Source: Bacillus marasmi (GTDB lineage Bacteria; Bacillota; Bacilli; Bacillales; Cytobacillaceae). From it: a stretch of DNA of 64,000 nucleotides. Made by a program: the position numbers and the translations under genes. The notes under the pieces are model-generated. The model made no database searches. It was not told where the DNA came from and worked only from the letters and a program-made list of their open reading frames with translations. The stretch covers positions 124,001 to 188,000 of the forward strand of contig NZ_LR656171.1 in assembly GCF_902168435.1 (NCBI RefSeq), given 5' to 3'. Shown here piece after piece: positions 6,414-32,036 of the stretch (its first letter is position 1; the number at the start of each line of letters is the position of its first letter).

Positions 6414-7600
6414 CTTCCAAATAATAATTTAAGATACCGGTATGGGTTGTAAGTAGGTTTCCCCTGTTCCGGAAACCAACTCTCGTTGTTCATCCCACGG
6501 TGAATAAAGGTGACGTCAATATCATAATTCACCTCAGCATTAGCATAAAGCTCATCCCAGTCAGATTTTACTCTTTGCCACTCCTTAGGATCTCGTCGGC
6601 GTAAGTTCAATTCAAAATCAGTGATATCAGTTTGTAAGCCTTGAAGCTTCTTTAGTGATGAACGCATGAGCTTCTCTACTTCTTTAGCAATTTTTGATTC
6701 TGCATCCTTCTTAAACGCTTTATTGAGCGTCCTTTGGGTCACATTATCCGCAAATGTTCCCACAACCTTCGTATGAATATCGACTTTAAGCTGATTTCCC
6801 TCAATATATGGTTTAATTTTAGTCTTAGCATCTGTTACTTCGAGAGAAAATCTACTTTGTGGATCAATCTCAACTGAAACGCTTCCACCCTTTACGTAAT
6901 CTAATAGCCAATTGAGTCCTGCCGATTCTTTTTTATTTAACTTTCCGACCATTTTGTTATCCTTAATGACCGCTGTTCCTGTGATAGCCGTCACTTTTTG
7001 CTTGCCGGCTTTTTGAATCGAAATAATAGGAATATAGGCATTATTGTGATGATCAGTAAGAAAACGATAAAATTCATAATTATAGACCGGTAGATATTCG
7101 GTAATAAATTTTGTGTGCTCAATTACCGAGGCAAGTTCATTTGATGTAAGACTTTTATACAAGGTTGGCGTATTAAAGATTTCCGTAGGATCTTTGTCAG
7201 TGATAAACAGATAACTATTTAAGCGAAGCATTGTATCTCGTCTGATTAAATCGAGTTCCACCGGAATATCTACGTCCTTTGCCAAGTTTTCACTAATAAT
7301 AAATATTTGCGTATGAGTAAAATCAAGCCGACGTTTTGCAGTCCGAATCAACCCTCGAAATGCTTCTATTAATGTATCAGCCTTTATTTCAAGGATGACA
7401 TGTTGTCCGCTGCTTTGTCCGCCAGCGCTTCCTTCTTGACCGCCTGAAGGTTTCGTGATTTCGGTGTATACTTTAATTCTTTTTCCTTCTTTATCTATCC
7501 CAACCCCCTGAACAAAGGCCGATTCCTCGAACTCTTGATAGTCCCAGCAACCAGTTAATAATAGTTGGATTAAAAGAAGAAATGGTATCGCTTTTCTCAT
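6410..7600 (-). CDS. Spore germination receptor lipoprotein, Ger(x)C type
   Basis: A 396-residue protein with a lipoprotein signal (MRKAIPFLLLIQLLLTGC; lipobox LLTGC, lipidated Cys at residue 18) followed by WDYQE, the conserved start of mature Ger(x)C proteins. The soluble remainder is exposed on the outer face of the spore inner membrane and assembles with the A and B subunits. It overlaps the A gene by 4 bp (7597-7600) and the B gene by 4 bp. Length is normal for the family. Expression is expected in the forespore, but I could not verify a sigma-G promoter. Confidence 0.94.
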   Translation of the reverse strand: MRKAIPFLLLIQLLLTGCWDYQEFEESAFVQGVGIDKEGKRIKVYTEITKPSGGQEGSAGGQSSGQHVILEIKADTLIEAFRGLIRTAKRRLDFTHTQIFIISENLAKDVDIPVELDLIRRDTMLRLNSYLFITDKDPTEIFNTPTLYKSLTSNELASVIEHTKFITEYLPVYNYEFYRFLTDHHNNAYIPIISIQKAGKQKVTAITGTAVIKDNKMVGKLNKKESAGLNWLLDYVKGGSVSVEIDPQSRFSLEVTDAKTKIKPYIEGNQLKVDIHTKVVGTFADNVTQRTLNKAFKKDAESKIAKEVEKLMRSSLKKLQGLQTDITDFELNLRRRDPKEWQRVKSDWDELYANAEVNYDIDVTFIHRGMNNESWFPEQGKPTYNPYRYLKLLFGR

Positions 7601-19107: not shown

Positions 19108-19803
19108 TTACTTTTGACCATAGTATGCGAATGCACCATGTTTTCTTAAATAATGCTTATCTAATAAATTTTGGTCCATTGAAGGAATTGAAGGGCTTAA
19201 ATTAAGTGTGTGATATCCCATTTTACATACTTCTTCTAAAATGACTGCGTTGTGGAGGGCATCCTCCGGATTTTTCCCCCAAGCAAATGGGCCATGACTA
19301 TACACTAATACAGCTGGTACTTCATTCGGATTAATACCGCGCTTATTGAAAGTTTCTATAATTACATTTCCAGTTTCTAACTCGTAATCACCTTTAATTT
19401 CTTCTTCGGTTAAACTGCGAGTGCATGGAACTGAACCATAAAAGGTATCAGCCTGGGTTGTACCGAGAGCTGGTAAATCTTTAGTTGCTTGTGACCAAAC
19501 GGTTGCCCATGTTGAATGTGTATGAACAACTCCACCAATATCTTTAAAGTTTTTGTATAACACTAAATGAGTGGCGGTGTCGGACGAAGGCTTTAGTTTT
19601 CCTTCAACGACATTTCCGTCTAAGTCAACGACAACTAAGTCCTCAGCTTTAAGCTTTGGATATTCCACACCACTTGGTTTAATAACCACAAGGCCTGATT
19701 CGCGGTCGATTCCACTTACATTTCCCCAAGTAAACGTTACTAAATCATGTTTTGGTAATCCTAAATTTGCTTCTAGCACTTGTTGTTTTAATTTTTCTAG
19801 CAC
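19108..19803 (-). CDS. araD: L-ribulose-5-phosphate 4-epimerase
   Basis: A 231-residue class II aldolase-fold enzyme converting L-ribulose 5-phosphate to D-xylulose 5-phosphate. The zinc ligands in [11 protein letters not shown] and YSHGPFAWG, the substrate motif TWGNVSGI and the C-terminal [15 protein letters not shown] are diagnostic of AraD. Length equals that of E. coli and B. subtilis AraD. It lies 70 bp downstream of a zinc dehydrogenase on the same strand. No araA isomerase is present in the window, so L-ribulose phosphate may arise from a pentitol rather than arabinose here. Confidence 0.93.
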
Positions 19804-19873: not shown

Positions 19874-20932
19874 CTATTTTTCATCAAAAGAAACTAATAC
19901 TTTGTTGTATCGGAGAGTTCGATCGGCCATGCCTTTTAAATACTCGCCAACTTCATCAACTGAGATTTTATGCGAAACCATTGGCTTAAACTTTATATCG
20001 CCTTTTGCCATAAAATCTAAAGTTGCTTTCCATGAGATTCCTGGATATGGGGCAGTATATGAATTCCATGTACCTTGAATTTTAATTTCACCGCGAAGAA
20101 TGTGTTCCATTGTTGCTTCTTCTAATGGAAGTTCTGAGTGTGAAATTCCGATTAAAACTACTCGTCCTTTTTTCTTTGCTGCAAGGATTGATTGCTGTTG
20201 AGTAATTTTACTTCCTGCCGTTTCAGCAACAACGTCCGCTCCACCATTCGTTAGTTCACGAATTTTCTCTACAACATTATATTCTTTAGCATTAATCGTA
20301 ATGTCTGCGCCTAATTCTCTTGCTAATTCTAATTTTTCCTCAAAGACGTCTACGGCAATGACAGTAGATGCCCCAAAGATTTTCGCCCACTGAATCGTCA
20401 ATTGCCCGATTGGACCACAACCCATAACGACTACTGATTCACCAGGTTGAATGTCTGCTTTTTGCAAGCCATGATAACCTATCGTTGCCGGTTCGATTCC
20501 AGCGGCTGTTTCAAAATCTAGTGAATCGTCAATCTGTAATACATGTTCTTTTGGTGCTTTTACATATTCCGCGAATGCGCCGTTGCTGCCTGTTCCGATT
20601 ATGTTATAGTCTTCACATAAACCATAGTCACTCGCCTTGCAATATTGGCACTCACCGCATGGTACGAGCGGAGCAACGACAACACGATCGTTTACTTTTA
20701 CATTTTTCACATTTGCGCCGATTTCTGCTACTACACCAGTGAATTCATGTCCTAAAATAAGCGGATATTTCCGCGCTCCACTTACCATTGAACGAGGCAC
20801 ATCCGAACCACATATTCCGCAATATACTACCTTAATTAAGACTTCATTTTCATTTATTTGTGGTATATCTACCTGCTCAGATTGAAAATTACCAAGTGAG
20901 TGTAATACCGCCGCTTGCATTTTTCCTTCCAT
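19874..20932 (-). CDS. Zinc-dependent polyol(-phosphate) dehydrogenase, GatD-like
   Basis: A 352-residue medium-chain dehydrogenase. Catalytic zinc ligands are in CGICGSD and GHEF; structural zinc cysteines are in CGECQYCKASDYGLC; the NAD fold motif is GCGPIGQ. The closest family by eye is galactitol-1-phosphate 5-dehydrogenase / sorbitol dehydrogenase. In this context it probably oxidises a pentitol or pentitol phosphate to the matching ketose. Start ATG 20932 with GGGAGA upstream; an internal ATG four codons later is an alternative. It follows the ABC permease gene by 150 bp containing a stem-loop, and precedes araD. Confidence 0.88.
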   Translation of the reverse strand: MEGKMQAAVLHSLGNFQSEQVDIPQINENEVLIKVVYCGICGSDVPRSMVSGARKYPLILGHEFTGVVAEIGANVKNVKVNDRVVVAPLVPCGECQYCKASDYGLCEDYNIIGTGSNGAFAEYVKAPKEHVLQIDDSLDFETAAGIEPATIGYHGLQKADIQPGESVVVMGCGPIGQLTIQWAKIFGASTVIAVDVFEEKLELARELGADITINAKEYNVVEKIRELTNGGADVVAETAGSKITQQQSILAAKKKGRVVLIGISHSELPLEEATMEHILRGEIKIQGTWNSYTAPYPGISWKATLDFMAKGDIKFKPMVSHKISVDEVGEYLKGMADRTLRYNKVLVSFDEK

Positions 20933-21027
20933 AACAATCTTCTCCCTTGTTGTCGTAAATTTCCCCAAATTCCGCTACATCTTGTAGTTATAAAAATAGG
21001 AATGGTTTTCATGTATCTAATTAATAG

Positions 21028-21082: not shown

Positions 21083-22078
21083 TTAATCCTTTTGGCTTCG
21101 GCTGCTATAGTAGATAGCACCAACGATGATGACACCTTTTAATACCCTTTGAACGTGTGGTGAAACACCCATTAAGTTCAGTCCATTACTTAATACACCC
21201 ATTAATAAAGCACCTAGTAATGTTCCAAAAATATGGCCACGTCCACCAGCGATACTAGTTCCACCCAACACTACTGCGGCGATGGCATCTAGTTCATAGC
21301 CTTCACCAGCCATCGGCTGACCTGAAGAAAGTCTTGCTGTCATGATTAAACCACTGATGCTGGCTGTGATTCCACTGATTAAATAAACTAAAGTTTTAAT
21401 TCTTTTAACTTTTACACCAGATAAACGTACTGCTTCTTCGTTACCACCAATCGCATAAATATGTCTTCCGAATGGTAAATGATTAAGAATAACGTAAGCC
21501 GCAATAAACACTAAAATCATGATGACTGCTGGCATTGGAATTACCTCAAATAGGTATCCTCTACCGATAAAAGCAAATTCACTAGGTAATCCTGATAAAG
21601 GATATCCACCCGTATACAATAGTGCTACACCACGCGCAGCTTCCATCATCGCTAAAGTAACAATGATTGCTGGAATTCTTGCATATGAAACGAAAATTCC
21701 GTTAATATAACCAAGCAATGCACCTAGTAAAATTCCAATTAATACTGCTAAAATTGGTGACAATCCGACATTGATCATTAAGCCGGCCATAATTGTTCCT
21801 GTTAAAGCCAATACTGACCCGACTGATAAATCAATACCACCTGTTAAAATGACGAATGTCATACCAACTGCCAAGATTCCGTTGATTGAAACTTGTCTGA
21901 TGATATTTGAAATATTTGTTCCTGTAAAAAATTCCTCAGTAAATACGCTGAAAAATACGCATAGAACAAAAAATCCAATTAAGGTTAACATTTCTGGATG
22001 TTTAAAGGTTTCTTTTAGATTAAATGGTTTTGCATTATTTAATTTTATTGACGTTGATTCTTTTTTGATTCCACTCAT
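21083..22078 (-). CDS. Ribose-type ABC transporter permease
   Basis: A 331-residue inner-membrane protein of the RbsC/AraH/XylH (carbohydrate uptake 2) family with about nine or ten membrane segments. GGIDLSVGSV is the family signature, and GGNEEAVRLSGVKVKRIK is the cytoplasmic coupling (EAA-like) loop. It pairs with the double-ATPase upstream, overlapping its stop by 4 bp (ATGA at 22075-22078). The substrate is probably a pentose, pentitol or related sugar, judging from neighbours. Last gene of the leader-controlled transporter operon. Confidence 0.93.
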   Translation of the reverse strand: MSGIKKESTSIKLNNAKPFNLKETFKHPEMLTLIGFFVLCVFFSVFTEEFFTGTNISNIIRQVSINGILAVGMTFVILTGGIDLSVGSVLALTGTIMAGLMINVGLSPILAVLIGILLGALLGYINGIFVSYARIPAIIVTLAMMEAARGVALLYTGGYPLSGLPSEFAFIGRGYLFEVIPMPAVIMILVFIAAYVILNHLPFGRHIYAIGGNEEAVRLSGVKVKRIKTLVYLISGITASISGLIMTARLSSGQPMAGEGYELDAIAAVVLGGTSIAGGRGHIFGTLLGALLMGVLSNGLNLMGVSPHVQRVLKGVIIVGAIYYSSRSQKD

Positions 22079-23577
22079 TTTGAAACACCACCCACAGCAT
22101 AGTGCATTACGTTTTCTGAAGTTGCTTCTTTACTAGACATTTCTGCCTGAATTTTTCCTTTATGCATAACAAGCACTCTATCGCTCATTCCTAAAACCTC
22201 AGGTAATTCCGATGAAATCATAATAATCGAAATTCCTTTATCTGCTAAATTTCTCATTAATTTATATATTTCTTCCTTAGCCCCTATGTCTATTCCACGG
22301 GTAGGTTCATCAAAAACAATAATTTTACAATCCGTATTGAGCCATTTAGCTAATACGACTTTTTGTTGATTTCCACCGCTTAAATGTTTAACCTTCTGCT
22401 TTGAGCTTGGGGTTTTGATTAGCAGCTCTTTAATAGATTGCATCACAAGCTCTTCTTCTTTCTTTTTATCAATTAGACCAATGCTTTTTGATAGTTTCTT
22501 AAGTATAGGCAAAGTGATATTGTTCTTTACTGTCATATCAAGAACTAACCCATGCGTTTTTCTGCTTTCTGGTAATAAACAAATCCCATGATTTAACGCG
22601 TCAGTAGGGTTTTTAATATTTACTTTTTTACCATTCAAATAGACTTCCTTGTCTTTTGCATCATCAGCACCTATTAGCGCTCTAACAGTTTCTGTCCTGC
22701 CTGACCCTACTAAACCAGCAATCCCTAGAATTTCACCTTTTTTTAATGAAAAGCTAACTTCCTTAACATGAAGATTATTTAACCTTTTCACTTCCAAGAG
22801 GGTTTCCTCGTCTTTCTCATCACGTTTTGGCCGCTCAGGAAAAGCATTTACAATTTCTCTTCCTACCATCATTTTGACGATATCTTGTTTCGTACAATCA
22901 GCAACTTCTCGTGTTCCGACGAATTCTCCGTCTCTTAAACACGTTAAGCGATCACACATTTGCAAGATTTCTTCCAAGTGATGAGAAATATATATAATGG
23001 TTACACCATTTGCTTTCAACGTCTCAATTAACTCAAATAATTTATCAATTTCTTTCCCTGTCAAACTTGCAGTAGGCTCATCAAAGATTAACACTTTCGT
23101 ATCAATGGCAATCGCTTTCGCAATTTCAATAAATTGCTGATTGGCAATACTTAATCTTGTTACCGGTTTATTGAGATCAATTTTGGCATTTAATCTTTGT
23201 AAAACTTCCTCAGCCTGTTTTTTCATTTTTCGTTTGTCTAATAGACCATTAACTTTCTTTAGTTCACGACCCAAAAATATGTTATCAACACCATTTAAAT
23301 ATGGTATTAAGCTAAATTCTTGATGGATAATACTAATTCCTAACTTTTGCGCTTCCTTAGGATCTTTAAAAATAACTTCTTTTCCATCTAGTCGGATTTT
23401 ACCTTGAGTAGGGCTGTATACACCCGAAAGGATTTTCATTAATGTTGACTTACCAGCGCCATTTTCCCCTACTAAAGCATGAACTTCACCGCGTCTTATG
23501 TTAAAACTTACACCATTAAGCGCTTTAACCCCAGGGAATTCTTTTGTTATATTCTCAATTTCCAGGATATGATCCAA
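22075..23577 (-). CDS. Ribose-type ABC transporter ATP-binding protein (two ATPase domains)
   Basis: A 500-residue CUT2-type ATPase with two nucleotide-binding domains. The first has Walker A GENGAGKST, Walker B VLIFDEPTASL and His-switch YISHHLEE. The second has a loosened Walker A (GLVGSGRTE), the signature LSGGNQQK and Walker B IIVFDEPTRGID. The start is TTG 23577, because GGGGGAAGG lies 8 nt upstream; a GTG at 23586 is too close to that site. It powers uptake through the permease encoded next. The kinase at 25981-27828 carries a degenerate relative of this protein's first domain. Confidence 0.93.
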   Translation of the reverse strand: MDHILEIENITKEFPGVKALNGVSFNIRRGEVHALVGENGAGKSTLMKILSGVYSPTQGKIRLDGKEVIFKDPKEAQKLGISIIHQEFSLIPYLNGVDNIFLGRELKKVNGLLDKRKMKKQAEEVLQRLNAKIDLNKPVTRLSIANQQFIEIAKAIAIDTKVLIFDEPTASLTGKEIDKLFELIETLKANGVTIIYISHHLEEILQMCDRLTCLRDGEFVGTREVADCTKQDIVKMMVGREIVNAFPERPKRDEKDEETLLEVKRLNNLHVKEVSFSLKKGEILGIAGLVGSGRTETVRALIGADDAKDKEVYLNGKKVNIKNPTDALNHGICLLPESRKTHGLVLDMTVKNNITLPILKKLSKSIGLIDKKKEEELVMQSIKELLIKTPSSKQKVKHLSGGNQQKVVLAKWLNTDCKIIVFDEPTRGIDIGAKEEIYKLMRNLADKGISIIMISSELPEVLGMSDRVLVMHKGKIQAEMSSKEATSENVMHYAVGGVSK

Positions 23578-23608
23578 TGAAATCACCTTCCCCCTACTTT
23601 TATTAATT

Positions 23609-23654: not shown

Positions 23655-24623
23655 TTACCAGCTAAAGCCTTTTGCGTTTTCTTTTGTTTGTAATTTAACA
23701 TCGATTGGAACTTCAGTTGGTACTACTTTTGCACCCCAATATTTAGCTAAAGCCATACCTAAACCGATTCGTACTTGGTCTCTTGGGAATTGTGCAGTAG
23801 TCGCTTTAAATGGACCATCTGCTAAAATTGCTTCGATTGCTTCTGGATGTCCGTCAACACTGTATAGTAATACATCACGGCCAGATGCTTCGATTGCACC
23901 AAGTGAACCTAAAGCACCCTCGTCATTAACGCTGAAAATTGCCTTTAGTTCTGGGTTAGCTTGTAACATATTTTCAGTTACGCTCATTGCTTTTTCACGA
24001 TTTTGCTTACCATTTTGAGTATCTACTAATTCAATACCAGGATGCTTAGCAATCGCAGCTTTGAATCCTTCAACACGCTCTAGGATAGGTACTACTGGAA
24101 TACCATCTAGGATAGCTACTTTGCCTTTTCCATCAAGGTCTTTTGCCATTTGTTCACCAGCAAGGAAACCTGCATCGTAGTTTTTAGATCCTACAAATGA
24201 ATCAGTTGGACCTTCTGCTTGAGCATCAACCGCAACTACAATAACACCAGCTTTGTTAGCTGCGATTACAGCGCTTTCAACACCTTTACTGTCAGTAGGG
24301 TTGATTAAAAGGATATCTACACCTTTTTGGATCATATCTTCAATATCACTTACTTGCTTACTAACATCATGTTGCGCATCGGCAATAATTGTTTTTGCAC
24401 CAACAGCTTTAGCTGCATCTTCAAAAGCTTCATTCATTGAAATAAAGTAAGGATTGTTCATTTCTTGGAATGACATACCAATTAGTAACTCTTCATCACT
24501 AGCACTCTTACCTGTTGATTCTTTCTTCTCTCCGCCAGCTTCTTTATCAGATGAACATCCAACAGCCACAAACATAAATGAAACTAGTAAAACAATCAAA
24601 AACGCCAATGAGTTCTTTTTCAT
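23655..24623 (-). CDS. Ribose-type sugar-binding lipoprotein
   Basis: A 322-residue solute-binding protein of the RbsB group (Peripla_BP_4 fold). The lipoprotein signal ends in the lipobox AVGC with Cys23, then a Lys/Glu/Ser linker, and the binding domain from about residue 45 (LIGMSFQEMNNPYF). Motifs INPTDSKGV, SKNYDAGFLAGE and FSVNDEGALGSLGAIEASG are typical hinge/ligand regions of the family. It is the first gene of the transporter operon and lies behind a terminator-containing leader. The ligand is not decided by sequence; a pentitol or pentose fits the neighbourhood. Confidence 0.93.
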   Translation of the reverse strand: MKKNSLAFLIVLLVSFMFVAVGCSSDKEAGGEKKESTGKSASDEELLIGMSFQEMNNPYFISMNEAFEDAAKAVGAKTIIADAQHDVSKQVSDIEDMIQKGVDILLINPTDSKGVESAVIAANKAGVIVVAVDAQAEGPTDSFVGSKNYDAGFLAGEQMAKDLDGKGKVAILDGIPVVPILERVEGFKAAIAKHPGIELVDTQNGKQNREKAMSVTENMLQANPELKAIFSVNDEGALGSLGAIEASGRDVLLYSVDGHPEAIEAILADGPFKATTAQFPRDQVRIGLGMALAKYWGAKVVPTEVPIDVKLQTKENAKGFSW

Positions 24624-24740
24624 GTTAAACCCCCGAAAAATATTTTTATTTTTTCATTAAAAGATTAAAAATCAGCTATTCTTGGTTAACATCCCCCCCT
24701 TCAAATAATGAATGCGTTTACAACTTATACAAAAAATAAA

Positions 24741-24852
24741 AGTGCCTCATTTAATAGACCTATTATGTTTAAAAAACAAACATAATTAGATCATTAAACA
24801 AGGCACTCATAGCCTTATAAATTTTATACCAGCCGTAAGCATAAAATTTATA
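24741..24852 (-). promoter_or_regulatory. Candidate ANTAR-controlled antitermination leader
   Basis: Read on the minus strand, three structures occur in order. P1 (24816-24852): a 15-bp stem with a 7-nt loop UACGGCU. P2 (core 24800-24816): AAGGC/GCCUU stem, extendable to 7 bp, with a 7-nt loop UAUGAGU. Then an intrinsic terminator (24741-24807) with arms of about 30 nt and the tract TTTATTTTTT. The loop and 3' arm of P2 are the first bases of the terminator 5' arm, so P2 and terminator exclude each other. Paired small hairpins with the second overlapping a terminator are the known layout of ANTAR targets, and an ANTAR regulator is encoded next door. The loops are 7 nt with UA-N-G, not the strict published hexaloop. 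Confidence 0.72.
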
Positions 24853-24923
24853 AATATTTAATTTAGATTAATTTTTCACTTAAAAATAGAAACAATGTTA
24901 ATTCAGTTAGTTAAGTTAATTGA

Positions 24924-24952
24924 ATTATATTAATATCAAACACAATAGTCAA
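24924..24952 (-). promoter_or_regulatory. SigA promoter of the sugar transporter operon
   Basis: TTGACT (24947-24952) and TATAAT (24924-24929) on the minus strand with exactly 17 bp between. Expected start near 24917, giving a leader of about 295 nt ahead of the binding-protein ATG at 24623. Confidence 0.8.
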
Positions 24953-25035
24953 GTGGTTTTTATATATTTTAGTATAACATTTTTACAATTAAGTATAACC
25001 TACTTGCCTGTTAAGTATAACATATTAATCATTCT

Positions 25036-25626
25036 CTATTCAAAATAAAATAATGATTCCGCTTGAATAAGTTCTTTCGCTATAACGACTAGTTTTTTAT
25101 TTTTATCTCTACTCATTTTTTGTAATCGTTTCATAGCCTCTGCTTCCTGGATATTCATTCGTTTCATCAGAATGCCTTTCGCTTTTTCAATATGTTTACG
25201 AGCCTCCAGGGCGCTCTTTGTGTCCTTCAACTCATCTTGAAGTTTTTGAATTTCTTCAAACTTAGCCATACTAATATTGATCGCAATATTTAATTCCTTA
25301 ATATCGATAGGTTTTAATAAGTAATACAGTACACCCTCTTCTGTAGCCCTATCTATTAGTTTTTCATCTGAATACGCACTGATTACGATACTAGGAATAT
25401 ATAATTTTTCATGTATTTTTTTAATTGCTTCAATACCATCGAGATTCGGCATATTTATATCCATAATGACTAAATCCGGCTTCTTCTCTAATGCTAATTC
25501 TACCGCTTTCTCCCCATCAGTCGCCTCTCCGATCACTTGATGTCCTAAATTTTCAACATATGCTTTTAAGGACATTAATATCAAAAATTCATCTTCAGCT
25601 ATTACGACTCGTAAAGATTTTTTCAT
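25036..25626 (-). CDS. ANTAR-domain antitermination response regulator
   Basis: A 196-residue regulator with a receiver domain (1-120) carrying the acidic pair E11/D12, phospho-acceptor D56 (VIMDINMP), S84 and K105, a short coiled-coil (121-140), and an ANTAR RNA-binding domain (about 137-192; HIEKAKGILMKRMNIQEAEA). ANTAR regulators, once phosphorylated, dimerise, bind paired RNA hairpins and prevent terminator formation. The likely target is the leader of the transporter operon, whose promoter lies 84 bp beyond this gene's stop. ATG 25626 follows GGGGAGG. The partner kinase is divergent at 25981. Confidence 0.95.
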   Translation of the reverse strand: MKKSLRVVIAEDEFLILMSLKAYVENLGHQVIGEATDGEKAVELALEKKPDLVIMDINMPNLDGIEAIKKIHEKLYIPSIVISAYSDEKLIDRATEEGVLYYLLKPIDIKELNIAINISMAKFEEIQKLQDELKDTKSALEARKHIEKAKGILMKRMNIQEAEAMKRLQKMSRDKNKKLVVIAKELIQAESLFYFE

Positions 25627-25980
25627 ATAATCCTCCCCACCAAAGTCATCATTTGATTATTGAAAAATAATTTATAATGGTTTTGGAAATTCCCAAAAGA
25701 ATAGAAGGCGCTTTCACATCATCATGTTAACAGCGCATTTAATGGTTAAGTTTATTTATTGTTGTTCATGATATTTTCTATTATGATAAAAAATAATAAC
25801 GCTTCCTTCTCAGCACTTAAACCCATCCATTTTATTATATCAAAATCAAGTTTTTTGCTTACATGTATATTTAGTCAAAAAAACTACAAAAAACGCTTCT
25901 GCCACAAATTTTTCATTAGGTTAATAATATTAACATATTAATTAGATTTTTTCATGAATAAAGGATTACGGAGGTTTACC

Positions 25981-27828
25981 TTGTCAAAGTATATTTTTGA
26001 GATTAACAACTTAACATATAGAAGCCCTGACGGAAATATGGAAAATGTTAGTTTGAATCTTGGATACGGAGAAATCCATGCAGTCATCATAAAAAGTAGC
26101 TCAGAACAAAATGTATTTATTAATTCTTTAAAGGAAAAGCAAGAGGACCATGGTCAAAAAGGCGTTTTTACGTTTAAGGACCATATCCTTATGAATAATA
26201 ATCTTAGAAAAAATAAGATCTTAATCATGCAACAAAAACCATTATTGTTCAATAACTTCACAGTAGCTGAAAATCTTAATTACGCAAACTTACCTACTCG
26301 AAAATTCATCCCATTAATCAATTGGTGGAAAGTAAGAAAAAGAGCAGAAAATATATTAACGCTATTAGATTTTCAAATCAATCAAAATACAAGAGTTAAT
26401 AAATTAACCGAAGAAAACAAAAGAATCGTTTATATTGCCGGAATATTTATGTCCAGACCAGAAGTTATCATTATGCAAGAACCAATGGAAGGCCTGTCGG
26501 CAAATTATGCTGCAAAGTTATCCAAAGTACTTAAACAGTTTAAGGAAGATGGCGGGAGCATCATTTATGTGACGAAACAATGGGAAGAAGCCATTAAAGT
26601 TGCGGATCGAATTTCAATTCTTTCAAAGGGGAAAATTAGGAATGAAATACCTGCAGAAGTAGCTAAGCGTGATCCCCATAAATTACTTCGGGAAATTGAA
26701 AATTACACGTTTAAAGAGGACCATTTAGAAAAGGATGATGACACCCAAGCAGTACTTGAGGCAATTTTTAAAGCTGCCGAATTTTTAACCTCTGAATATG
26801 AGCTGAAGGATGTATTATTGCTGTTGGCTAAAGAAGGCAATAAGGTAATGAATGCTGATGGCTGTTCCATCAAATTAATTGACGAGCAAACCTGGAGTAT
26901 TATTGATGAATTTGGAATTAACGAGAAAAATGTAAAAGCCCATTTAACAAATGAAGCAATCATTAAAATTGCTAAAGGCAACGATATTTTTTATGTAAAT
27001 GAAAATGATAAAGAATTCAACTTGATGTTTGAAAAAATTGAGAATGTAAAAACATTTATTTGTATTCCAGTATTAATTAGGAACCAAGTAACCGGAATCA
27101 TCCAATTATTTTATGAAAATTTATATGTTTATTCAAACGAAGAAGCTAAATACTTGTCGACATTAGCGCGTCATGCTGCAATCGCAATAGAAGATACTAG
27201 ATTAATTGGTCGATCGGCCTTTTTACAAGAAAGTCACCATCGAATAAAAAATAATCTTCAATCTATTGTTGGACTGATATATCTACAAAAATCATTTGTG
27301 CAAAAAAATCCCGAAATGTCGATTGATGATGCTCTAGATAGTATCATTTCTAGGGTAAAAAGCATCGCCTCTGTCCATAATCTTCTGGCGAGAGACAAAT
27401 TAGGAAGAAGTATTATCAACGTAAAAGAAATTATTGAGGCCGTGATTGACCTGTTGAATATGGACCCCAATATTAAAATCAGCTTAGACTTAGATGATAT
27501 TTTAATTCCTTATAACAAGGCCACTTCTATTGCCCTTATCATTAACGAATTAGTCATCAACTGCTTTAAACACGCTTTTAAAGGTATGGATTCTGGCAAA
27601 ATTGATATCAAATGCAAACGAATGGAAGAAAACATTGTATTACAGGTTGCTGATAATGGGATAGGATTACCTGACAATTTTAACTCAAAACAAGGCGAAA
27701 GCCTCGGATTAACAATTTTACAAGGAATTGTTAGTAGTGATTTAGGTGGAACGATTCATTTTATCAATCAGGAAGGCACTACCGTAGAAGTCATCGTACC
27801 GACTAACCAAATTTTTCCACAACCATAA
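25981..27828 (+). CDS. Sensor histidine kinase fused to a degenerate ABC-ATPase domain
   Basis: A 615-residue cytoplasmic protein without membrane helices. Residues 1-240 form an ABC nucleotide-binding-like domain resembling the first domain of RbsA-type ATPases. Its Walker A is lost (IKSSSEQN, about 37-44, no GKS/T), Walker B reads VIIMQEPMEGL (Asp to Gln), and the switch His is Lys (YVTKQWEE). A GAF domain follows (about 258-405), then HisKA_2 with H420 (SHHRIKNNLQ) and a HATPase domain (about 500-610; NELVINCFKHAF, DNGIGLP). The HisKA_2 type is typical of ANTAR partners such as EutW. Start TTG 25981 after GGAGG at 6 nt; the ATG at 25954 has no site. It probably phosphorylates the divergent ANTAR protein. 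Confidence 0.9.
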   Translation: MSKYIFEINNLTYRSPDGNMENVSLNLGYGEIHAVIIKSSSEQNVFINSLKEKQEDHGQKGVFTFKDHILMNNNLRKNKILIMQQKPLLFNNFTVAENLNYANLPTRKFIPLINWWKVRKRAENILTLLDFQINQNTRVNKLTEENKRIVYIAGIFMSRPEVIIMQEPMEGLSANYAAKLSKVLKQFKEDGGSIIYVTKQWEEAIKVADRISILSKGKIRNEIPAEVAKRDPHKLLREIENYTFKEDHLEKDDDTQAVLEAIFKAAEFLTSEYELKDVLLLLAKEGNKVMNADGCSIKLIDEQTWSIIDEFGINEKNVKAHLTNEAIIKIAKGNDIFYVNENDKEFNLMFEKIENVKTFICIPVLIRNQVTGIIQLFYENLYVYSNEEAKYLSTLARHAAIAIEDTRLIGRSAFLQESHHRIKNNLQSIVGLIYLQKSFVQKNPEMSIDDALDSIISRVKSIASVHNLLARDKLGRSIINVKEIIEAVIDLLNMDPNIKISLDLDDILIPYNKATSIALIINELVINCFKHAFKGMDSGKIDIKCKRMEENIVLQVADNGIGLPDNFNSKQGESLGLTILQGIVSSDLGGTIHFINQEGTTVEVIVPTNQIFPQP

Positions 27829-28889: not shown

Positions 28890-29975
28890 TTACCACTTAA
28901 AGTCTAAAATGACTCTTTCCCAACTTCTATGCTCTCCAGCAAAATCCATTGCTTTCATAAAATCCTTTGCATCATGAATCGGATTAAATTCTGCAGGAAG
29001 AATGGCTCTTAGTGTCTTTTGATACTCAACGTCTTCCATCGCAGTGATGACTGCATGAAAATCCGGATATGCGCTTCGGCTGCTTCCATATAGAGTAAGG
29101 CCTTTTTCAAGCACGTCTCTTGTATTAATCGGCACCCTTTCCTCTGATACTCCCATAAGAACGAGCGTACCGCCACGAGCTAATAAATCAATTCCTTGGT
29201 TTACAGCACTTTCGCTAAATTTTCCACCTGTACACTCAACCACAACATCCACTTTTTCCGAAGTTTTAAAATCATATTCTTGAACTAATGCGCGTTTTGC
29301 AAATCCAAATTGCGCAAGTTTTTCAGGGATGGCCCCAAACACGATTAATCTAGAAGCATCCAATCCATAAATATGATGAATCATCGCTGCAGTTAAATAC
29401 CCAACAGGCCCATCACCGAAAACAGCTACTTTAGAATTTGGCGAATTTAATTTGCTCTTTATTCGGCTTAACGCTTGATAGGAAACTGTGCACAATTCAG
29501 ATAGTACAGCAATTTCATTAGGTATACTGTCTGCTACTGGAATCGCGCATTCTGCCGGGATCACTAGGCGACTTTGGGCAATGCCATCATAACCGCTACC
29601 CAAAAATTTATTTTTTTCATTGTAATTTCCAATAAATTCATCTTCACAAAGAGAACTACATTCTACTGAGTCGCCATTTCCTGGGATGTTAGGGACGATT
29701 ACCACTCTTTGCCCTACTTCAACGCCATCTGCTTTACTTTCTATAACTCTACCAATTCCCTCATGAATTAAAGCCATTGGTAATTTCTTCGCCATTACTT
29801 CCGGACTTCTTAGCCCCATGTAATAACGCAAGTCTGCATGACAAACGCTTGCAAGAATTGGTTCTACTACAACTTCCCCATCCATTACATCTCGCTCAAT
29901 CATGACTTCTTCAACGTTCCCAGGACTTAGTAGTCTAAATGTTCGTGATTGAACTGCTGACTTTGTATCTTGCAT
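28890..29975 (-). CDS. TarJ-like ribitol-5-phosphate / pentitol dehydrogenase
   Basis: A 361-residue medium-chain dehydrogenase whose pattern matches TarJ (ribulose-5-phosphate reductase) better than other alcohol dehydrogenases: SVCHADLRYYMG, KKLPMALIHEG, FGDGPVGYLTA and LEKGLTLYGSSRSAYPDFH. TarJ interconverts D-ribulose 5-phosphate and ribitol 5-phosphate with NADP(H). No tarI or tarF partner is present, and the gene is divergent from araB with shared operators, so oxidation of a pentitol (phosphate) in catabolism is more likely than teichoic acid synthesis (inference). ATG 29975 follows GGGGG. It has its own terminator. Confidence 0.88.
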   Translation of the reverse strand: MQDTKSAVQSRTFRLLSPGNVEEVMIERDVMDGEVVVEPILASVCHADLRYYMGLRSPEVMAKKLPMALIHEGIGRVIESKADGVEVGQRVVIVPNIPGNGDSVECSSLCEDEFIGNYNEKNKFLGSGYDGIAQSRLVIPAECAIPVADSIPNEIAVLSELCTVSYQALSRIKSKLNSPNSKVAVFGDGPVGYLTAAMIHHIYGLDASRLIVFGAIPEKLAQFGFAKRALVQEYDFKTSEKVDVVVECTGGKFSESAVNQGIDLLARGGTLVLMGVSEERVPINTRDVLEKGLTLYGSSRSAYPDFHAVITAMEDVEYQKTLRAILPAEFNPIHDAKDFMKAMDFAGEHRSWERVILDFKW

Positions 29976-30359: not shown

Positions 30360-32036
30360 ATGGAAAATAACAAGTACTCAATTGGAATTGATTATGGATC
30401 TGAATCTGGAAGGGTTCTTATAGTAGATATAGCAACTGGAGAAATAAAAGGAATGCACGTCATTCCATACCGTCACGGAGTCATTACTGAAACAATACCT
30501 AATTCATCAATCATGATTCCAAAAGGAAGTGCTCTTCAACACCCCAATGATTATATTGAGGTTTTAGAACAAGGAATTCCCGTAGCAATGTCAAAAGCTG
30601 GTATCAAGCCAGAGCAAATCATTGGCCTTGGAATTGATGTAACGTCATCAACATTAATACCCGTTGATGAAACCTTAAAACCTTTATGCCTTCACAAAGA
30701 ATGGCAGGATAACCATCATACATGGTTAAAGCTTTGGAAACATCATCATACCAAGTCGCAAACAGAAAAAATCTATAAATTAGCAACTCAGCGAAAAGAA
30801 AAGTGGATGCGTCGCTTAGGTTATAATATCTCAGAAGAATGGGCGCTCCCAAAAATGTTAGAGATTTTTGAGGATGCTCCTGAAGTATATAGCGCAACAA
30901 CCTATTTTATTGAAGCAGTAGATTGGCTAGTCTCTAACCTTACTGCAACCTTAATTAGGAACAATTGCTCATTAGGTTTCAAAACATTTTGGAATGAAAC
31001 GGACGGATTTCCTGAAGAATTCTTTAAAGAACTAGATGAAGAATTTGGTTCAACAATACTAACAAAATTACAAGGTGAAGTTAAAAACATCGGTACACGC
31101 GCTGGATTCCTTACAAAAGAATGGGCTGAAAAACTTTCCCTTCCAAAGGGATTGCCTATAGCAACAGGGATTATTGATGCACATTCTGCAGTACTAGGGA
31201 CTGGGGTCTATCAACCTGGAACCTTCCTTATGGTGATGGGGACTTCTACTTGTCATTTAATGCTGCACCCTGAAGTAAAAGAAGTACCTGGAATTTCAGG
31301 TGTCATGAAGGATGGGGTTTTACCTGGCCTATATGCCTATGAAGCTGGTCAATCTGCCGTAGGTGATTTATTTGGTAGCTATGTAAAAAAACATGTGCCT
31401 AAATCTTATTATGATGAAGCACAAGAACTAGGATTATCCGTATTCAACCTTCTGGAAAAGAAAGCTAGTAAGCTCCTACCAGGAGAAAATGGCATGTTTG
31501 CGCTCGATTGGCATAACGGCAATCGTTCCATATTATCTGATGCTGATTTGTCTGGAGTATTAATCGGTCTCACCCTTCATACAAAACCTGAAGAAATATA
31601 CCGTGCGTATATGGAAAGTACGGCGTTTGGAGCAAAGATCATAATAGAAACGTTCCGAGAATGGGGAATGAATGTTGAAAAAGTAGTGGCTTGTGGTGGA
31701 TTGCCACAACGCAATGCACTTTTAATGCAAATTTATGCGGATATTCTTAATATGCCAATTCAAATTTCACAGTCCGAATATGCTCCTGCAATCGGTGCTG
31801 CTGTATTAGGGTCAGTAGCGGCAGGCAAAGAAAATGGTGGGCATCATAACATTGCAGAGGCTATTGAACATATGGCCCAACCTTTTGATAAGACATACTA
31901 TCCAAATGCTGAAAGTGTCGCTATTTACGAAACCCTTTTTAACTATTACAAAGAGATGCATAATTTATTTGGTATTACACACGTCAATCTAATGAGGACA
32001 TTAAAACAACTTCGAAATCGTTCAAGTGAATTTTAA
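30360..32036 (+). CDS. araB: Ribulokinase
   Basis: A 558-residue FGGY-family kinase, close in length to AraB of E. coli and B. subtilis. The N-terminal phosphate-binding motif GIDYGSESGRVLIVD, the substrate loop LHKEWQDNHH, GTSTCHLML and the ATP-site ACGGLPQRNALLMQIYADI are present. It phosphorylates L- or D-ribulose; E. coli AraB is known to accept ribitol and L-arabinitol too, which is relevant as no isomerase gene accompanies it. ATG 30360 follows GGGAGG. It is divergent from the TarJ-like dehydrogenase and ends at a strong terminator. Confidence 0.94.
   Translation: MENNKYSIGIDYGSESGRVLIVDIATGEIKGMHVIPYRHGVITETIPNSSIMIPKGSALQHPNDYIEVLEQGIPVAMSKAGIKPEQIIGLGIDVTSSTLIPVDETLKPLCLHKEWQDNHHTWLKLWKHHHTKSQTEKIYKLATQRKEKWMRRLGYNISEEWALPKMLEIFEDAPEVYSATTYFIEAVDWLVSNLTATLIRNNCSLGFKTFWNETDGFPEEFFKELDEEFGSTILTKLQGEVKNIGTRAGFLTKEWAEKLSLPKGLPIATGIIDAHSAVLGTGVYQPGTFLMVMGTSTCHLMLHPEVKEVPGISGVMKDGVLPGLYAYEAGQSAVGDLFGSYVKKHVPKSYYDEAQELGLSVFNLLEKKASKLLPGENGMFALDWHNGNRSILSDADLSGVLIGLTLHTKPEEIYRAYMESTAFGAKIIIETFREWGMNVEKVVACGGLPQRNALLMQIYADILNMPIQISQSEYAPAIGAAVLGSVAAGKENGGHHNIAEAIEHMAQPFDKTYYPNAESVAIYETLFNYYKEMHNLFGITHVNLMRTLKQLRNRSSEF

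Follow-up and report, generated by a model that had tools for sequence, protein, structure and literature searches.

The closest described counterparts of the leader reported here are the RNA targets of ANTAR regulators. In the EutV/EutW system (PMC3369931; PMC8934654), as at the locus described below, a receiver-ANTAR regulator is accompanied by a HisKA_2 kinase, and the target has two hairpins in tandem, of which the second and a terminator exclude each other, with G at loop position 4. The published target hairpins carry hexaloops with A1 and G4 (A-N-N-G), and altering any of those four bases in the two loops lowered induction (PMC3369931). The EutV-RNA structure has Tyr164 stacked on G4 and Met172 plugging the loop, and Met172 was proposed perhaps to set the loop sizes that an ANTAR accepts (PMC8934654). 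The nasF leader of Klebsiella oxytoca likewise has dual hairpins read by an ANTAR domain, that of NasR, for which SELEX yielded hexaloops that had A1 and G4 and sat under a C:G pair (PMC7496416). The majority of published ANTAR regulons have nitrogen-metabolism cargo (PMC3369931), and some actinobacterial ANTAR-target RNAs resemble the present case in being linked to ABC and sugar transporters (PMC8164766); the latter paper was the only one found on ANTAR, a sugar transporter and antitermination together. Our literature searches returned nothing on ANTAR with a heptaloop, nothing on ANTAR with HisKA_2 and an ABC transporter, and no histidine kinase fused to ABC transporter ATPase and GAF domains, and broader ones brought up known ANTAR papers and general ones, which is no proof of absence from print.

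The window, i.e. the whole stretch of DNA that was analysed, comprises 64,000 nt of Bacillus marasmi (NZ_LR656171.1, 124,001-188,000; GCF_902168435.1). On its minus strand a promoter, two hairpins (P1 and P2) and a strong intrinsic terminator follow one another between 24952 and 24731, ahead of a sugar-transporter operon. An earlier, sequence-only reading had placed a near-ideal SigA promoter here, and the SigA-type pair TTGACT-17-TATAAT is indeed found at 24924..24952 with 11 of 12 consensus matches. P1 (24816..24852) bears the loop UACGGCU (24837-24831), with an invariant closing U·G over C-G in the folds and in a comparison of nine orthologous leaders; its stem has the 15 bp originally assigned to it in the nascent fold and 17 bp in the full fold. 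P2 (24801..24815) bears the loop UAUGAGU (24811-24805), as had been described, on a stem of 4-7 bp rather than 5-7 bp. The terminator (24731..24807), also recognised earlier, appears in the folds as a stem at ~24807-24741 followed by a U-rich tract (24740-24731), and its 5′ arm begins within P2. The full leader of the window folds at -50.8 kcal/mol (z = -7.4), a value equalled by 0/200 shuffles. In step-wise folding of the nascent RNA of the window, the P2 pair probability stays at 0.994-0.998 up to an RNA 3′ end of ~24755, is down to 0.06-0.11 at 24745 and is 0 in the complete leader. P2 and the terminator are thus mutually exclusive, as had been proposed from the 3′ side of P2 being the start of the terminator 5′ arm, and there is only a brief interval in which P2 could be held. 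Simple pattern scans of the window give no support on their own: promoter-like sites were not enriched, and the terminator at 24807-24731 was absent from the scan's list, although the folds do show it.

Close orthologs of the regulator (67-88% identity; 70% in G583) occur in nine genomes including the window's own (G000, G013, G014, G091, G452, G515, G547, G571 and G583). That of Mesobacillus campisalis (G091, locus L048) was the one close ortholog among the best 80 of 289 relatives in a contig scan. Searches with the regulator found nothing among plasmid records at E 1e-40 and only its own genome among 398 class-wide genomes at E 1e-42. The gene order regulator, leader, binding protein, ATPase, permease is kept at 9/9 loci, the binding-protein frame being shorter in G014, and all nine leaders have a promoter-like pair (spacing 17, 10-11/12 matches), P1, P2 and a U-tailed terminator. 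Mean pairwise identity over the nine loci is 80% for P1 and 89% for P2, in contrast to 29% between promoter and P1 and 31-35% in the stretches past the terminator (three stretches in all). The conservation in related genomes on which the sequence-only reading had been staked is therefore present, and the layout of an ANTAR antitermination site beside an ANTAR gene is kept at all nine loci and at a distant tenth, described below. The published arrangement of tandem hairpins, the second exclusive with the terminator, is found in 9/9 leaders, the step-wise exclusion referring to the window's. Five of the nine leaders (L035, L044, L045, L047 and L132) have an extra upstream hairpin, P0, whose loop is of the same type and lies 87-100 bases upstream of P2. 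P0 was chosen by a regex requiring the loop type (A2, G4, U7) and at least 3 pairs; the sites are weak matches to the leader model described below (E 0.007-1.3), and in L044 and L045 the RNA favours another fold, with a heptaloop probability of 0.08. P0 is possibly an extra docking site.

Other elements flank the leader. Two TTATACTTA copies at 24990-25020, between the regulator gene and the promoter, resemble the 5′ arm of P1; the motif is not clearly rarer than chance, with three in the window and as many in 14/100 shuffles. Directly past the terminator (24709..24723, minus strand) is the cre-like site TTGTAAACGCATTCA, a possible CcpA roadblock. The cre-like pattern alone is not rarer than chance within the window; across the nine leaders four have a strict match, three a relaxed match only, and L047 and L132 none. 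The position of this site after the terminator suggests that CcpA control may be layered on the leader. A Shine-Dalgarno-like purine box (24691..24702, minus strand) lies far upstream of the first gene. A GAAAGGGGTGAT-like box is found 101-128 bases past the P2 start in eight of the nine leaders (regex), the ninth, L046, having GAAAGAGGTGAT in its place (by eye). The box might stabilise the mRNA. A leader peptide at the box was rejected, its reading frame not being conserved (by eye).

Over 25 loops (nine P1, nine P2, five P0 and two from the distant genome G1042) the sequence reads N-A-N-G-N-N-U, with A2, G4 and U7 in 25/25, a figure that is partly selection because P0 and P2 (the latter by a sequence regex) were found by pattern. 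The presence of P1 and P2 at all nine loci is not a product of loop selection. The U-A-N-G-N-N-U consensus first put forward holds at these three positions, whereas its leading U is found in only 21 loops (C in 2, A in 2); position 5 is G in 19, A in 4 and U in 2. Likewise, the proposal that both loops have seven nucleotides, one more than a hexaloop, is one of two readings, because U1 faces U7, which leaves a 5-nt A-N-G-N-N closed by U·U as the alternative; in G1042, A1 faces U7 and the fold pairs them. Either size, seven nucleotides or five with a closing U·U or A-U, differs from the published six, and the conserved A is at position 2 rather than 1. In the Bacillales loops the A-to-G distance is one base shorter than in A-N-N-G, while the AAAG start in G1042 fits both. 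Set against the published RNA motif, the leader appears to follow the ANTAR antiterminator pattern, yet departs from it in loop size and in A1.

The loops might nevertheless be ordinary ANTAR hexaloop sites, in which one base is pushed out and A-N-N-G is read as usual, with no new code. The G1042 loops AAAGGCU and AAAGGAU can be taken as hexaloops that carry A1 and G4 and have gained a U, hexaloop matches near other ANTARs include AAAGGC, AATGGC and AACGGC, and 17/23 Bacillales loops have the A-N-N-G spacing from A2 to G5. However, the hexaloop register has a probability of 0.008-0.033 in the nine P1 hairpins and P2 permits none, and A1 (2/25) and a G at position 5 (19/25) are less constant than A2, G4 and U7. 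With the loop-handling residues of the regulator also changed (below), we consider this explanation improbable.

In the nine-leader alignment, 7 of 32 predicted pairs change on both sides, six of them in the terminator, whose pairs covary, and one in P1. P1 and P2 alone gave no covariation signal over the nine leaders (score reached by 359/500 shuffles), there being too little variation. When the P0 and P1 stems were aligned, 98.1% of cells were paired, with 7 compensatory cells, and the covariation score was 0.335 vs 0.237 in shuffles (0/500 as high), P0 having itself been selected as a hairpin. Two of the five measures, pairs changing on both sides (42/500 shuffles) and further pair types (459/500), were unremarkable. 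Five P1 pairs vary; in four the change is confined to one side and leaves a G·U-type pair, and the fifth is broken in 2/9 leaders. P1, being long, AT-rich, nearly palindromic and little varied, could be taken for a DNA operator bound by a repressor, the terminator then being a plain attenuator with no ANTAR link. However, the one-sided changes that keep wobble pairing and the invariant closing U·G argue for RNA rather than a DNA palindrome, the loop bases are among the most conserved, and P2 and the terminator exclude each other in 9/9 leaders, all of which renders an operator very improbable. The leader had no match to any of 4227 Rfam models, so the library does not pin down its RNA class, and this leaves room for a ligand-sensing riboswitch or the site of some other RNA-binding protein. 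We regard either as hardly credible, since the hairpins are small and form no junction or pocket, the leader co-occurs with the ANTAR gene, and the layout of dual hairpin and terminator is that described in PMC3369931.

The regulator gene (25036..25626, minus strand) encodes a receiver-ANTAR response regulator scoring 64.4 bits against PF03861 (cut-off 27.3), the curated Pfam score being reached. Its AlphaFold model has a mean pLDDT of 90.1, with EutV bound to RNA (6ww6) as the best structural match; among PDB chains the ANTAR stretch scores highest with NasR, which differs in having Trp and Met at the two positions considered here and a one-component NIT sensor. In a gapless alignment with EutV, the regulator keeps Arg142, Lys149 and Glu160, whereas Met165 replaces Tyr164 and Arg173 replaces Met172. 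The aromatic residue at G4 and the Met plug, usual but not defining for ANTAR, are thus absent, and Met/Arg is found in 8/8 distinct sequences of the clade formed by the nine loci. A first tally found Tyr, Phe or His at the first position and Met at the second in 63/63 other distinct ANTARs, a sample drawn from the best-scoring loci and biased to the consensus. After 40 further loci, 111 distinct ANTARs among the matches listed included Met/Arg in 8, all of the clade, and in 0/103 others; departures outside the clade were Met/Met in two, Tyr/Arg in two, Tyr/Gln in one and Leu/Met in one. All 111 agree at the positions of EutV Lys149 and Glu160, and 107 of them at that of Arg142. This sample is almost all from one phylum, apart from PDB chains, and the weakest ANTARs lie outside the matches listed. 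The idea of a variant recognition class, first raised on account of the loops, is strengthened by the regulator itself, in which the two loop-handling residues of the EutV-RNA structure are replaced; the changed residues would read the changed loop.

Further ANTARs depart at one of the two positions. Those of L205 (G1009) and L215 (G1081), from one genus, keep Tyr and have Arg at the Met172 position; a NANGRNU dual hairpin was not found in 16-19 kb at these loci. At L222, a looser scan found one pair with unlike loops at stem 3. The ANTAR of L220 (G1136, 6721-7305) has Met at the Tyr164 position, a receiver below the Pfam cut-off and an adjoining HD-type protein (by eye); in 16 kb of G1136 the final scan found nothing and the loosest one yielded a single pair, with unlike loops.

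One of the two Met/Met regulators comes from G1042, a genome of the same phylum and another family. It adjoins a sensor 48% identical to that of the window over 616 residues, with the same ABC-GAF-HisKA_2 make-up. The first contig breaks off within the permease; C31, found among 60 further contigs or contig parts of G1042, overlaps it by 141 identical bases and carries an XylF binding protein (442 bits, cut-off 390), an XylG-type ATPase (just below cut-off) and the permease start. Before XylF is a leader, spotted by reading the sequence and then folded, with the loops AAAGGCU (between ACC and GGU) and AAAGGAU (between GGC and GCC), the second within the 5′ arm of a terminator ending UUGUUUUUU. 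This leader was not found by leader model R1, and it was the only altered-loop match in 61 pieces (546 kb). Because G1042 keeps Met172 with an altered loop, the loop change seems to track Tyr164-to-Met and not the disappearance of the plug at Met172; U1 may go with the Arg found there in the clade. The link between loop and residue may be one event, since a common ancestor of the clade and G1042 is probable.

A covariance search had been suggested at the outset, and a model of P1-P2 was built from these leaders. In the genome of the window it had a single match at E up to 5. Among 397 order genomes it matched G000, G452, G515, G547 and G571, the five holding the regulator at E 1e-45, and among 193 family genomes G000, G013, G014 and G091, the four with 79-100% regulator identity, with one leader match in each. 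Matches are thus confined to genomes with a close regulator; some regulator match at E 1e-20 exists in 57/193 family genomes. The matches are expected because the model was made from the same leaders, and the informative part is that the model stays silent in the remaining 392 and 189 genomes, in searches that scored only the best first-look candidates under stricter filters. Weak matches (E 0.86-4.8) were seen in G1009 and G1071.

Moreover, a final scan for a dual hairpin of the altered-loop type with an overlapping terminator matched 9/9 clade loci and 0/102 other ANTAR loci, whereas the corresponding hexaloop scan matched 0/9 and 21/102. This is a measure of specificity and not a blind test, because the pattern (NANGRNU, with a better terminator rule) was fixed after the G1042 leader had been read and the loops were known; two P0 loops, CAUGUGU, fall outside it. 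In block-shuffled pieces of G1042, the one genome used for this control, the altered-loop scan matched 0/305 and the hexaloop scan 4/305; the latter also matched 1/61 real pieces. A first dual-hairpin scan had matched only 4/9 clade loci at stem 4 and 8/9 at stem 3, seven of these being the real leader, with L047 missed and other pairs only in L132, and had matched 1/90 shuffled clade loci. The looser variant gave three matches at stem 3 and none at stem 4 in the 40 further ANTAR loci. The window's own genome provides an internal control: its second ANTAR, of EutV type (Tyr, Met), lies in an eut locus with EutA, EutB, EutP and a BMC protein, and this locus has at least three dual hairpins that bear hexaloops and are accompanied by terminators.

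The operon behind the leader (minus strand) begins with an RbsB-like sugar-binding protein (23655..24623) and continues with an RbsA/XylG-type sugar ABC ATPase (22075..23586), an RbsC-type permease (21083..22078) and a polyol-type zinc dehydrogenase (19874..20968), and an AraD-like L-ribulose-5-phosphate 4-epimerase (19108..19803) above the curated cut-off. The cargo is thus a sugar ABC transporter with pentose enzymes, and in G1042 an XylF-type transporter, in contrast to the nitrogen cargo typical of published regulons and to that of EutV/EutW. A ribulokinase (30360-32036, above the curated cut-off) and a second dehydrogenase (28890-29975) lie on the far side of the sensor gene; among the stretches fetched for the eight other loci, close copies occur only in G013 and G014. 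The polyol dehydrogenase, AraD-type epimerase and ribulokinase suggest that the substrate may be a pentitol or a pentose.

Divergent to the regulator is a gene (25954..27828, plus strand) for a sensor kinase with a degenerate ABC ATPase domain, GAF, HisKA_2 and HATPase, the ABC domain setting it apart from the EutV/EutW kinase. This domain is closest to sugar-transporter ATPases (AlsA and AraG models, 84 and 76 bits). In place of Walker A it has K-[SN]-S-S-E-Q in 9/9 orthologs, and residues around the Q-loop are conserved. A structure model of the sensor had a mean pLDDT of 48.8 and was set aside. That a kinase with a catalytically dead ATPase domain is encoded next to a transporter of matching type hints that the kinase may sense the transporter.

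Taken together, we favour, with a probability of roughly 0.8, ANTAR antitermination with an altered loop/reader code and a pseudo-ABC sensor kinase, the leader being a transcription attenuator opened by the adjoining ANTAR regulator. Without a signal, RNA polymerase would start at the promoter at 24952-24924 and make P1 and P2, after which the terminator would capture the 3′ side of P2 and transcription would stop, giving a short RNA estimated to run from about 24917 to about 24735. With a signal, the divergently encoded kinase would phosphorylate the regulator, which would bind the P1 and P2 loops and hold P2, so that the terminator could not form and the sugar-transporter operon would be transcribed. 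The RNA side of the code would be N-A-N-G-N-N-U, or equivalently an A-N-G pentaloop with U·U or A-U as its closing pair, as against the hexaloop A-N-N-G, and on the protein side Met stands in place of the Tyr that stacks on G4 and Arg in place of the Met that plugs the loop. A broader proposal, to which we give slightly less than even odds, is that of a second ANTAR RNA-recognition class, in which the Met replacing Tyr would read an A-N-G loop whose closing pair is U·U or A-U. Such a class would be orthogonal to EutV in the same cell and present in at least two distant lineages, and its kinase would report transport through the dead ABC domain, either by docking this domain on the sugar transporter ATPase or by mimicry of that ATPase.

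Lastly, the question of whether Met172 bears on loop size becomes testable by swaps, because loop and reader have both changed in nature and G1042 is an intermediate, having Met at the Tyr164 position, Met172 kept and the loop already altered. The RNA targets of the Tyr/Arg ANTARs of L205 and L215 would be informative. Search models that demand a hexaloop could miss sites of this kind. The cargo is carbon rather than nitrogen and the sensor type is unusual, the kinase with its lost Walker A being a possible sensor of transport state. A cell in which two ANTAR systems differ in their loops would offer an orthogonal pair made by nature.
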